DNA of 35,753 bases, taken from IMG/VR virus record IMGVR_UViG_3300002835_000559, positions 1 through 35,753 of that record; one strand, given 5' to 3'. Each line of letters opens with the position of its first letter. The first letter of the stretch is position 1. Below the pieces are notes generated by a model that searched no databases, had not been told where the DNA came from, and worked only from the letters and a program-made list of their open reading frames with translations. This DNA is from a virus. Made by a program: the position numbers and the translations under genes. Shown here one piece after another: positions 30,414 through 35,445 of this stretch.

Positions 30414-31019
30414 CTAGATAATTTTGTCAGACTTACTAATATTATCCTTGGCCCACAATGGCTGCAAGTTAGAATAATGAAAACATAATTTTTGTTGTTC
30501 TAGATTTGTTAGATCAAAACTAGAACATGGTTTTATATGATCTATGTGCCATTGTCCATAATTATCCCAGTTCATACCATCTATAAATTTAGATTCCATA
30601 TATTTTAAAAAATCATATGTAGAACATCCTAACAGTTCTAATGTACTAGAACTTTTGCAGTCTCTAGTTATTGTTTGGTTGACTCTTCTACGTAAATTTT
30701 TTTTAATTTTATATTCAATATCATTTTTACGTCTATTACGTTCATTTTCGTTTATTTTATACTTATTTTTACGACACCAATTTATTTTTTGATTTGTCAC
30801 TTTTTCAGCATTATTTTTTCTCCAATTTTTCATATACTCTGGATTATTATTACGAAATTCTAAAGTTTTATTCTTTAATTTATCTGCATTTTTAATATAA
30901 TAATTTTTATGGTATTGAGACGCACATACTTTGCATCTATATGTTGGTTTATGATTTCTTTTTTCAAAATGATCAACAGACTTTTCTACTTGACAAACTG
31001 AACAAACTTTATTATACAT
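30414..31019 (-). CDS. HNH endonuclease with N-terminal zinc motif, probable homing enzyme
   Basis: 201 residues, RBS TAGGAGAG before ATG 31019. N-terminal 'CSVCQVEKSVDHFEKRNHKP' plus 'CKVCASQYHKNYY' forms a four-Cys zinc module. A long basic Asn/Lys helix follows. The C-terminal nuclease is 'WHIDHIKPCSSFDLTN' (DH of HNH) with 'HYSNLQPLWAKDNISKSDK' (Asn and final catalytic residues). This architecture is typical of free-standing phage homing endonucleases. It is on the opposite strand from its neighbours and lies between a good promoter and UVDE, so it looks inserted. Confidence 0.85.
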   Translation of the reverse strand: MYNKVCSVCQVEKSVDHFEKRNHKPTYRCKVCASQYHKNYYIKNADKLKNKTLEFRNNNPEYMKNWRKNNAEKVTNQKINWCRKNKYKINENERNRRKNDIEYKIKKNLRRRVNQTITRDCKSSSTLELLGCSTYDFLKYMESKFIDGMNWDNYGQWHIDHIKPCSSFDLTNLEQQKLCFHYSNLQPLWAKDNISKSDKII

Positions 31020-31066: not shown

Positions 31067-31978
31067 ATGAATAAAATTGGTCTTTGCTGTATATCTTTAA
31101 ATGTCAAAAATTTAGGATATTCATTTCAAACTATGACATATAAAAGATTTTCATCTTTACCAAAAGACGAAGCTCTTTCTATTCTTGGCGAAAGAATACT
31201 CAATAACATGATAACTACAAATAAAACAATAGAATATTGTGCTAATAATAATCTTACTTATAGGTTAAGTAGCGACTTATTTCCATTAATTACATATGAT
31301 AAAGCAGATATATATTTAGAAAATCTACCAAATTATGACGATATTCAAGATGAGTTTGATTCAATAGCTAATACAATATCGCAAAATCAAGTAAGGATAT
31401 CTTTACATCCATCTGAGTATAATAGTCTAGCAAGTTTGTCTAAAGATGTAGCAAACAAAACAATTACAGAACTTAATTTTTATTCATCTTTCATGGATCG
31501 TATAGGATGCCCAGCAGACTACCGATCACCCATGAATTTACACGTACACAACAAAACGGGCGATTATGAGTCTATTATATCTAGATTTACTAACAGTTTT
31601 AATCTTCTTGATCCCAATTGCCGTAGCAGGCTTGTCATCGAAAACGATGATAAAGTAAATTGCTGGAGTGTACGTGAACTTACCTCTATATTCCATTCTA
31701 AAACCAACATACCCATTACATTCGACTACTTACATCATGCCTGCCATCCAGACGGTTTATCAGAGGAAGAGGCTATAAACGCTTGCTATGCAACGTGGGG
31801 CGACTATAAACCCCTGTTCCACTACAGCGAAAGCCGTCCCGGTAATAACCCAAGAGCACACGCTGATTACGCAAATAATTCTTTTAACACTTATGGATTA
31901 GATTTTGATCTTGACTTTGAACTCAAGATGAAGGATAATGCAATATCTCGTTACACTAACAATTTGATAGGTGCATAA
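31067..31978 (+). CDS. uvsE: UV-damage endonuclease (UVDE/UvsE family)
   Basis: 303 residues, near full family length. TIM-barrel UVDE motifs in order: 'IGLCCISLN' at the start, 'TYRLSSDLFPLITYD' near residue 68, 'RISLHPSEYNSLAS' near 112, 'NLHVHNKTGD' near 150, 'RLVIENDDKVNCWSVRELT' near 185, 'ITFDYLHHACHPDG' near 215, 'FHYSESRPG' near 248 and 'RAHADYAN' near 262. His, Glu and Asp residues in these motifs bind metal. The enzyme nicks DNA 5' of UV photoproducts, starting excision repair. No RBS is obvious before the ATG, consistent with disruption of its leader by the HNH gene. Overlaps the next gene at the stop. Confidence 0.93.
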   Translation: MNKIGLCCISLNVKNLGYSFQTMTYKRFSSLPKDEALSILGERILNNMITTNKTIEYCANNNLTYRLSSDLFPLITYDKADIYLENLPNYDDIQDEFDSIANTISQNQVRISLHPSEYNSLASLSKDVANKTITELNFYSSFMDRIGCPADYRSPMNLHVHNKTGDYESIISRFTNSFNLLDPNCRSRLVIENDDKVNCWSVRELTSIFHSKTNIPITFDYLHHACHPDGLSEEEAINACYATWGDYKPLFHYSESRPGNNPRAHADYANNSFNTYGLDFDLDFELKMKDNAISRYTNNLIGA

Positions 31979-34370: not shown

Positions 34371-34524
34371 CCCTATAGACTATTTGATTGAATGTTGCGA
34401 GAATTCTATTAGCACAGGATACTGGACTATAACTAATTTCAATGTCTTAAATGCCAAAGATGAACTAAAAAGATTAAGATCTAATGAAGAAGAACTAAAG
34501 AAGCTACTTGACAAGAGCCGATGA
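34354..34524 (+). CDS. Small helical protein
   Basis: 56 residues from ATG 34354 (GGAGTAAAA upstream): MNKDSNPIDYLIECCENSIS then a coiled-coil-like 'AKDELKRLRSNEEELKKLLD'. The last codons carry the promoter of the intron-bearing tRNA. Confidence 0.6.
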   Translation: MNKDSNPIDYLIECCENSISTGYWTITNFNVLNAKDELKRLRSNEEELKKLLDKSR

Positions 34525-34536
34525 TAGTGGTATGAT
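34508..34536 (+). promoter_or_regulatory. Promoter of the split tRNA
   Basis: TTGACA 34508-34513, 17-base spacer AGAGCCGATGATAGTGG, TATGAT 34531-34536, 14 bases before the tRNA 5' end. Confidence 0.85.
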
Positions 34537-34550
34537 GAAGAAGTGAACAC

Positions 34551-34819
34551 GGGAGTATAGCCCAACGGCAGAGGCAAAGGACTTATACAATTTGAGTGCA
34601 TAAAAGGAAACTTTTAATGTAGAACCTGTCAAATTCGGTGAAGGCTTAACTGCTAATACCGAGCCAAGCATAGAAATATGAAGGTGTAGAGACTTAACGG
34701 CAGGAACCTAAAACGAAAGTTATGGTTAAGATAAAGTCCAGACTACAAACAGAAATGGTAGTGAAAACTATAGTAGTAAGAAAATCCTTAAAGTGTCGGT
34801 TCGAATCCGACTACTCCTA
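34551..34819 (+). tRNA. tRNA with UAA anticodon, interrupted by a group I intron
   Basis: Exon 1 is 34551-34584, exon 2 is 34781-34819; together 73 nt. Acceptor GGGAGTA/TACTCCT (G1-U72 wobble), D-stem GCC/GGC, anticodon stem AAGGA/TCCTT with loop CTTAAAA, T-arm GTCGG-TTCGAAT-CCGAC, discriminator A. The anticodon UAA would read the Leu codon UUA, yet the variable loop has only 5 bases, so it is class I rather than the class II form expected of tRNA-Leu. Charging identity is therefore unsure. The intron follows U34, the same site as in cyanobacterial tRNA-Leu(UAA). Confidence 0.85.
34585..34780 (+). other. Group I intron, 196 nt, no ORF
   Basis: Starts after U34 and ends in G. P1: exon ACTT pairs with GAGT at 34596-34599, giving the U.G pair at the splice site. 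P3: CCTGTC with GGCAGG. P/Q (P4): TTCGG in 'AAATTCGGTGAA' with CCGAG in 'AATACCGAGCCAAGC'. R: 'GTGTAGAGACTTAACGG'; S: 'AAGATAAAGTCC', giving P7. P8: AACCTAAAAC/GTTATGGTT. Motif set and site fit the IC3-type tRNA introns of cyanobacteria and Azoarcus. Catalysis is expected because the core is complete. Confidence 0.88.
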
Positions 34820-35275
34820 TTTATTTTTAGCACGATAGTTATCAGTTAAAGCATGACAATTAGGACACAATAACTCTAAATTTGACAGTTCATTATTCAA
34901 ATGATTACCATCTTTATGATGTAACTCAATTGGAATAAGTTGATTAAGCCAAGTTTTTTGTTTACAATTATTGCATTTATGTTCCAAAATATTTTCTTTT
35001 ATGAGCCTACGTTTCAGTTTCCAACTTTGTATTCCAGCTTTATTAGAAAGATAATCTTCTATTGGACGTTTAGGACCAATTATTTTACCTCTATTCCAAC
35101 CCTGTAGTGTAAAATGAGAGATGTCAATATTATGCAATTCAATATGTTTTTTAAGACAAGCATAGTTACCCCCTGCTGCAACTATATTCATTTTTTCTAA
35201 ACATTGTCTATAACTATAAGATTCTGCACAAATTTTTGATAATACTTCTTTTGTATAATGATGTTTGAGATTCAT
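34817..35275 (-). CDS. HNH endonuclease next to the split tRNA
   Basis: 152 residues from ATG 35275 (AAGGAG 6 bases upstream); a longer frame lacks an RBS. N-terminal helical DNA-binding region 'YSYRQCLEKMNIVAAGGNYA' (HTH-like), then 'CNNCKQKTWLNQLIPIELHH' and 'KDGNHLNNELSNLELLCPNC' with 'HALTDNY': a complete HNH with two Cys pairs. On the opposite strand to its neighbours. Its stop codon overlaps the last three bases of the tRNA. It could be the mobility enzyme of the ORF-less intron, acting from outside. Confidence 0.88.
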   Translation of the reverse strand: MNLKHHYTKEVLSKICAESYSYRQCLEKMNIVAAGGNYACLKKHIELHNIDISHFTLQGWNRGKIIGPKRPIEDYLSNKAGIQSWKLKRRLIKENILEHKCNNCKQKTWLNQLIPIELHHKDGNHLNNELSNLELLCPNCHALTDNYRAKNK

Positions 35276-35285
35276 GATTAACTCC

Positions 35286-35314
35286 TTGACATTCCATAAG
35301 GTAGACGCTATAAT
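35286..35314 (+). promoter_or_regulatory. Promoter of tRNA-Arg
   Basis: TTGACA 35286-35291, 17-base spacer ending GTAGACGC, TATAAT 35309-35314. Overlaps the RBS region of the HNH gene on the other strand. Confidence 0.88.
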
Positions 35315-35346
35315 ACAATACACCAAAACGTTTTAAGTTTTGATTT

Positions 35347-35418
35347 GGCCCCATAGTTAAACGGATATAACAACTTTCTTCTAAAAAGTGATTAGGGGTT
35401 CAATTCCTCTTGGGGCTA
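35347..35418 (+). tRNA. tRNA-Arg (anticodon UCU)
   Basis: 72 nt: acceptor GGCCCCA/TGGGGCT (G1-U72), D-stem GTTA/TAAC, anticodon stem ACTTT/AAAGT with loop CTTCTAA, T-arm AGGGG-TTCAATT-CCTCT, discriminator A. Reads AGA, a codon common in the AT-rich genes here. Confidence 0.9.
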
Positions 35419-35445
35419 CTATTGATAACTATTTGGAGAAAAATA

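Follow-up and report, generated by a model that had tools for sequence, protein, structure and literature searches.

A split tRNA gene in a tailed-phage record

The window examined in the present study is the whole of a linear virus record of 35,753 bases. The record evidently derives from a tailed phage, given that its terminase matches phage terminases (at 23–28% among the matches listed) and that it also carries a head maturation protease gene. Positions 34551-34819 (+) hold a tRNA gene that is split by a group I intron between U34 and A35. The 5' exon (34551..34584, +) supplies tRNA nucleotides 1–34, the last of which is the wobble base U34, and is followed by an intron of 196 nt ending in G (34585..34780, +) and by a 3' exon (34781..34819, +) that supplies nucleotides 35–73, including the variable loop AAAGU and A73, with CCA not encoded. 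Once 34551-34584 and 34781-34819 are joined, ARAGORN calls the resulting 73-nt product tRNA-Leu(taa); its variable loop of 5 nt is not the long arm of a class II tRNA. Run with default settings, the same program overlooks the split gene. A second phage contig, L208, carries a 269-nt stretch 99% identical to the gene, and ARAGORN with introns allowed returns the identical junction and a 196-nt intron from it. An alignment to an intronless relative stops at 34585, one base beyond the 5' junction.

Two further genes adjoin the split tRNA gene. The first, on the opposite strand (34817..35326, -), encodes a 169-aa protein resembling HNH homing endonucleases (PHROG 10822, HNH endonuclease, E 1.8e-37), and its stop codon overlaps the final three bases of the tRNA gene. 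A Pfam search of this gene returned nothing, and an NCBIfam search just ZorE and YajD, far below the curated cut-off. The second is a tRNA-Arg(UCU) gene (35347..35419, +), which also lies 3' of tRNA-Leu(UAA) in two relatives, G002 and G003. Elsewhere in the window are an Endonuclease VII-like gene (30414-31019, -; PHROG 1035), another possible free-standing endonuclease, and a UvdE-like UV endonuclease gene (31067-31978, +; Pfam PF03851).

Core fold and covariation of the intron

The Rfam group I intron model RF00028 matches 34575-34761 with 58.7 bits, above its gathering score of 50, and with E 1.4e-12 when the whole window is searched. The alignment spans the whole model, and no other intron match was returned for the window. 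An earlier note on this DNA had described a tRNA(UAA) split by a group I intron of 196 nt after U34, had predicted a 73-nt product with a UAA anticodon, a class I body and a 5-nt variable loop, and had named the Rfam group I models as a check. The model search, the joined exons and the junction in L208 agree with it on each of these points.

The splice-site helix P1 is short, with four pairs. Its exon strand ACUU (34581..34584, +) pairs with GAGU at 34594-34597, and the splice-site pair is U.G. In 56 sequences three of these pairs are invariant, and the fourth is paired in 45. This GAGU forms the second part of the internal guide (34591..34597, +), the first part being UUU, which belongs to P10 and faces A35–A37 (34781-34783). 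The strands of P3 (34625-34630 and 34699-34704) enclose P4–P6 within 34625..34704 (+) and show double changes in six of six pairs. Those of P7 (34691-34695 and 34734-34738, within 34691..34738, +) are paired in 100% of cells with double changes in three of five pairs, and, by analogy, would form the guanosine site.

Covariation was assessed on an alignment of 56 of 78 short introns, copies with ≥95% similarity having been removed. In a 53-pair model that includes the P3 and P7 strands, 95.6% of 2917 cells are paired, compared with 77.5% after shuffling, and 539 cells show double changes, compared with 147 in shuffles, with 0 of 500 shuffles as high in a test that kinship among the sequences inflates. 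Pairing falls to 29–41% once the partners are slid. Pairs changed on both sides occur in each of P3, P4, P5, P6, P7 and P8, the splice-site U.G is present in 56 of 56 sequences, and all 93 collected tRNA-Leu introns end in G. The split gene is not a product of chance, since the identical fold recurs at the identical site in many other phage contigs and 38 of the 53 pairs have changed on both sides. By core fold and ends the element is a group I intron, and we infer that it splices itself.

A degenerate relic that no longer splices, leaving a dead gene, would be a highly improbable reading of the same data. The source contig is a metagenomic fragment, but every pair from P1 to P9 is standard in the window copy, the core is conserved across the 56 introns, the exons form an intact cloverleaf, and the end branch of the window copy is short (0.018) on an intron tree whose bootstrap had not settled.

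Distribution of the intron family

A pattern for the 3' splice site found at least 119 loci in viral sequences, of which 88 have resolvable exons and 31 do not. Among the matches listed, the 88 resolved loci are divided into 79 class II and nine class I tRNA-Leu(UAA) genes and give 71 distinct spliced tRNAs; where one locus offered several exon candidates, the shortest intron above 150 nt was taken. Intron lengths across the listed loci, the window and phage records are either 178–290 nt or 599–945 nt. A second pattern, built for other 3' exons, found 20 loci, seven of which yielded a spliced tRNA and 13 none. All seven have the junction after U34, in six tRNA-Gln(UUG) genes and one tRNA-Lys(UUU) gene. 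The huge-phage record LR756508 (L006, 484 kb) carries introns of the same family in neighbouring tRNA-Lys(UUU) and tRNA-Arg(UCU) genes (849-1065 and 1247-1445 of L006, respectively), within about 600 bases. A clade of phage introns occupies the position after the wobble base U34 in tRNA-Leu of class I and of class II, tRNA-Gln(UUG), tRNA-Lys(UUU) and one tRNA-Arg(UCU), as sampled by two patterns that target only this position and chosen exons, so that other sites escape them. A Microcoleus phage tRNA-Arg annotated as 286 nt long (L005:813-1098) has an intron-like core, and joining of its exons gave no tRNA.

The cyanobacterial tRNA-Leu intron lies in the same gene type and at the same site after U34. 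The likeness to the introns described here is one of gene type and site, whereas the present introns belong to phages, occur also in class I tRNA-Leu, tRNA-Gln, tRNA-Lys and tRNA-Arg, and are associated with HNH genes. Phage group I introns such as that of T4 td lie in protein-coding genes; the present family resembles them as phage group I introns with homing endonucleases and differs in being located in tRNA genes. Records such as LR756501 presumably belong to the huge-phage paper. The main text of that paper (PMC7162821) lacks the word 'intron', and the word 'phage' is absent from a 2025 paper on a group I intron database (PMC11835236). According to a passage of a 2014 review, all phage introns observed to that date were in protein-coding genes, despite the many tRNA genes of phages (PMC3984707); papers on the cyanobacterial intron are among the references of this review. 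The open-access papers listed by our searches pointed neither to group I introns in tRNA genes of phages nor to class I tRNA-Leu in phages; a prior report of either is possible, for example in subscription papers, preprints or supplements.

Match between the P10 guide and the anticodon

Positions 35–37 of the tRNA are faced by the three intron bases that precede the P1 guide on its 5' side. These bases read UUU in 43 of the 58 Leu introns and CUG or CCG in six of six Gln introns, while a cruder count that accepted any GAG near the intron start gave UUU in 24 of 47 Leu introns. Gln guides form 3.0 pairs with their own exon and 0.83 with a Leu exon, and Leu guides 2.71 and 1.78 pairs with their own and a Gln exon, respectively. 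The mean number of P10 pairs at positions 35–37 is 2.70 on own exons versus 2.34 on shuffled exons, with 0 of 5000 shuffles as high, although kinship among the sequences inflates this comparison too. These figures are based on 67 of 102 collected introns, 24 having been dropped as long or without GAGY and 11 as identical copies. The six Gln introns may go back to just one or two origins. The two Lys guides form 2.5 pairs on Gln exons as on their own, and the Arg guide forms one of three pairs on its own exon and two of three on a Gln exon. Judged by these pairings, the guide matches the anticodon well in Leu and Gln introns, partially in Lys introns and not in the Arg intron.

One could suppose that these U34-specific introns spread by re-matching P10 for each anticodon, and that the intron, by keeping the anticodon loop from existing as long as it is present, shields the precursor from host anticodon nucleases until splicing frees a functional tRNA. 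The guide matching that such a scheme calls for is seen for Leu and Gln, any benefit to the phage would be speculation, and we regard the scheme as very doubtful.

Empty and occupied alleles at one locus

Two relatives have terminases 97% identical to that of the window. In G002 (terminase L132) the sequence corresponding to 31062-34398 matches at 86%, and the match over 34481-34585 breaks off at the 5' splice site; the orthologous tRNA-Leu is class I and intronless, the tRNA-Arg gene is next in both, and a search of the syntenic site for an HNH homologue found none. In G003 the same locus is occupied by an intronless class II tRNA-Leu(UAA) gene (L239:18948-19030), again followed by tRNA-Arg. 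Close relatives have, at a single locus, class I with the intron, class I without it, or class II without it, and the two tRNA classes appear to have been exchanged at this site; the class II tRNA-Leu(UAA) in G003 fits with both classes having one job. The tRNA-Gln gene of G003 carries a related intron (75% identity), and that of the window is intronless.

On the intron tree, for which the bootstrap had not settled, the class I label of seven rows requires five changes, all five forced by well-supported branches, and the introns nearest to that of the window are from class I (L094) and class II (L120) genes. Either the intron passes from genes of one tRNA class to those of the other, or tRNA bodies are swapped around it.

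Identity of the class I tRNA-Leu(UAA)

The earlier note considered a Leu-anticodon tRNA without the long arm to be unlike bacterial tRNA-Leu, a view that neither bacterial genomes nor isolated phages support. A scan of bacterial genomes found at least 119 loci (L360-L478), and 117 of those listed hold a tRNA-Leu(UAA) shorter than 80 nt; the pattern spans the junction and can find only intronless chromosomal genes. By reading of titles, 74 of the 80 record titles listed are actinobacterial, and the gene is chromosomal in many Actinobacteria. Single contigs of Planctomycetota, Chthonomonadales, Deltaproteobacteria and Neomegalonema are in the same listing. The complete chromosomes of Mycolicibacter sp. 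and Mycolicibacterium sediminis have one UAA tRNA each, of 75 nt, as determined by ARAGORN re-reading of every pattern place (10 and 15, respectively); raw counts of the pattern TTAA...GTTCRA are no higher than those of its reversed control, so that only the re-reading counts, and a tRNA escaping the pattern would be missed. In viral sequences, a scan for intronless class I tRNA-Leu(UAA) found at least 120 stretches with at least 120 tRNAs at no fewer than 119 loci, all below 80 nt. Such genes, intronless and annotated as tRNA-Leu, are also present in isolated phages of cyanobacteria, Acinetobacter, Pseudomonas, Rhodococcus, Streptomyces, Mycobacterium and Enterococcus, and ARAGORN detected an unannotated one in phage S-SRM01. 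A short variable loop had previously been noted in the mycobacterial tRNA-Leu(TAG) of a tRNA cluster, as mentioned in a passage of PMC6582537. Class I tRNAs of phages in L046, L084, L110 and L235 bear different Leu anticodons (CAA, UAG), and these too have A73 and A20a.

The earlier note had also asked which synthetase charges such a tRNA. Its class I body is real, but the puzzle has largely gone, as class I tRNA-Leu(UAA) is widespread among phages and chromosomal in Actinobacteria, and the published determinants of leucyl-tRNA synthetase (LeuRS) are all present in the window tRNA. A passage of PMC9976931 gives those of the E. coli enzyme as A73, A15-U48, G18G19 and A20a, with the variable arm unneeded, and adds that this arm is dispensable for recognition of human mitochondrial tRNA-Leu(UUR) as well. 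The window tRNA (row L001) has A73, A15-U48, G18G19 and A20a. Across the same phage loci, the full set is present in 27 of 33 class I Leu-anticodon tRNAs compared with 3 of 338 other class I tRNAs, in a count that left 58 of 692 tRNAs unparsed and in which isolated-phage tRNAs were chosen by similarity to the window tRNA. By anticodon, it is found in 17 of the 19 class I UAA tRNAs, in all 66 class II UAA tRNAs and in none of the 7 class I Phe tRNAs, the two class I UAA exceptions (L106, L231) having G15 in place of A15. Among the matches listed, 107 unique intronless viral class I UAA tRNAs have A73 in 107 cases and A15-U48 in 100, with G15-C48 in 5 more, and 100 unique chromosomal ones have A73 in 100, A15-U48 in 98 and C.A at 13.22 in 100; the viral and bacterial patterns fix G18G19, A20a and A22, so that only A73 and 15-48 are independent here. 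The window tRNA shares its body type (A73, A15-U48, 13.22 = C.A) with actinobacterial class I tRNA-Leu(UAA), of which the chromosomal genes findable by pattern are intronless.

Alternatively, a class I tRNA of other identity, for example with a Phe body, could have been turned into a UAA tRNA by arrival of the intron, in which case a non-Leu synthetase would charge it and UUA would be misread. The class I body is in keeping with this, as is the 3' half AAAAUCC of the window tRNA, which we take to resemble that of tRNA-Phe. However, class I UAA tRNAs without an intron are common, the syntenic G002 gene among them, so the anticodon need not stem from the intron, and the class II tRNA-Leu(UAA) at the G003 locus and the distribution of the LeuRS set also argue against another identity. 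So does codon usage: where the terminase of the window has its 14 UUA codons, the 663 non-UUA codons in 80 related loci comprise 420 for Leu, 154 for Ile, 25 for Thr, 21 for Met and 20 for Phe. We reject a Phe-derived identity, given the absence of the full set from all seven class I Phe tRNAs, the 20 Phe codons and the G003 gene, and hold any origin from a non-Leu tRNA to be extremely unlikely. Most likely, then, the window encodes an ordinary leucine tRNA that belongs to a type also used by actinobacteria and would be charged with leucine.

An adjoining HNH gene and probable intron mobility

The HNH gene of the window is homologous to ORFs within long copies of the intron: among the matches listed, 18 of 21 long introns (19 distinct) contain a homologue, one of the matches being weak (E 8e-4). 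The long introns of L091 and L093 contain an ORF that, by eye, appears to encode a different HNH-type protein from the window gene. Counting any flank, and again among the matches listed, a same-family HNH gene occurs within 900 nt of the tRNA in 26 of 71 genes with a short intron, whereas it is found near none of the 21 genes with a long intron and at none of the 119 loci where class I genes are intronless. Restricted to unique tRNAs whose flanks are complete, the comparison is 14 of 39 short-intron genes versus 0 of 85 class I genes without an intron (p 1.4e-8 by Fisher test, among the matches listed), the control consisting solely of intronless class I genes. Of the nine intron genes for Gln, Lys or Arg tRNAs, six are flanked by HNH genes, with partial matches in two, and matches in L019, L088, L518 and L512 are only partial. 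The endonuclease gene is associated with the intron and absent from the empty alleles, yet most short-intron genes (45 of 71 among the matches listed) also have no same-family HNH gene in the available flank. The link is loose, in view of the 26 of 71 and the partial matches, and some copies may be decaying.

An HNH gene adjoining ORF-less introns follows the pattern of collaborative homing, in which a free-standing endonuclease serves an intron without an ORF, and the likeness extends to HNH genes both beside ORF-less introns and inside longer copies. The present case would differ in that the putative target of cutting is a tRNA anticodon loop. A different account is that the intron is mobile by itself, through reverse splicing or plain recombination, and that the HNH gene is an unrelated phage neighbour. 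The 45 short-intron genes without HNH favour this account, and the several tRNA types that hold the intron would suit reverse splicing guided by P1 and P10; HNH homologues within most long introns, their absence beside the intronless class I loci listed and their presence beside six of nine Gln, Lys or Arg intron genes speak against it, and we judge it unlikely.

We consider it very probable that the locus represents a mobile intron in a class I tRNA-Leu(UAA) gene, with guide-directed self-splicing, charging by LeuRS and probable HNH-driven homing. The guide UUU-GAGU would pair with C32, U33 and U34 of the 5' exon in P1 and with A35–A37 of the 3' exon in P10, and self-splicing would thereby restore the anticodon loop. 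The host LeuRS would then recognise A73, A15-U48, G18G19 and A20a and charge the class I tRNA with leucine, allowing it to read UUA and UUG. The adjoining HNH endonuclease most likely cuts intronless tRNA alleles, and repair would copy the intron and the HNH gene into them, as in collaborative homing, with the endonuclease gene placed inside the intron in other phages. The sequences themselves show the structure and site of the intron, the occupied and empty alleles, the HNH association and the fit of guide to exon for Leu and Gln; splicing, DNA cutting and charging are inferred.

Implications

The newer part of these findings, absent from the earlier note, is the association of the intron with a flanking HNH gene and its spread to other tRNAs. 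The gap stated in the 2014 review is filled for group I introns in phage tRNA genes by at least 88 resolved viral loci with at least 71 distinct spliced tRNAs. Phage tRNA counts may be low, since ARAGORN run without introns overlooks such genes. One intron family is present in several tRNA types, and for Leu and Gln its guide follows the anticodon; these ribozymes form a natural collection in which the choice of the 3' splice site by P10 could be tested. The leucine tRNA without a long arm appears to be a normal tRNA of bacteria and phages, and offers a natural test of what LeuRS needs.
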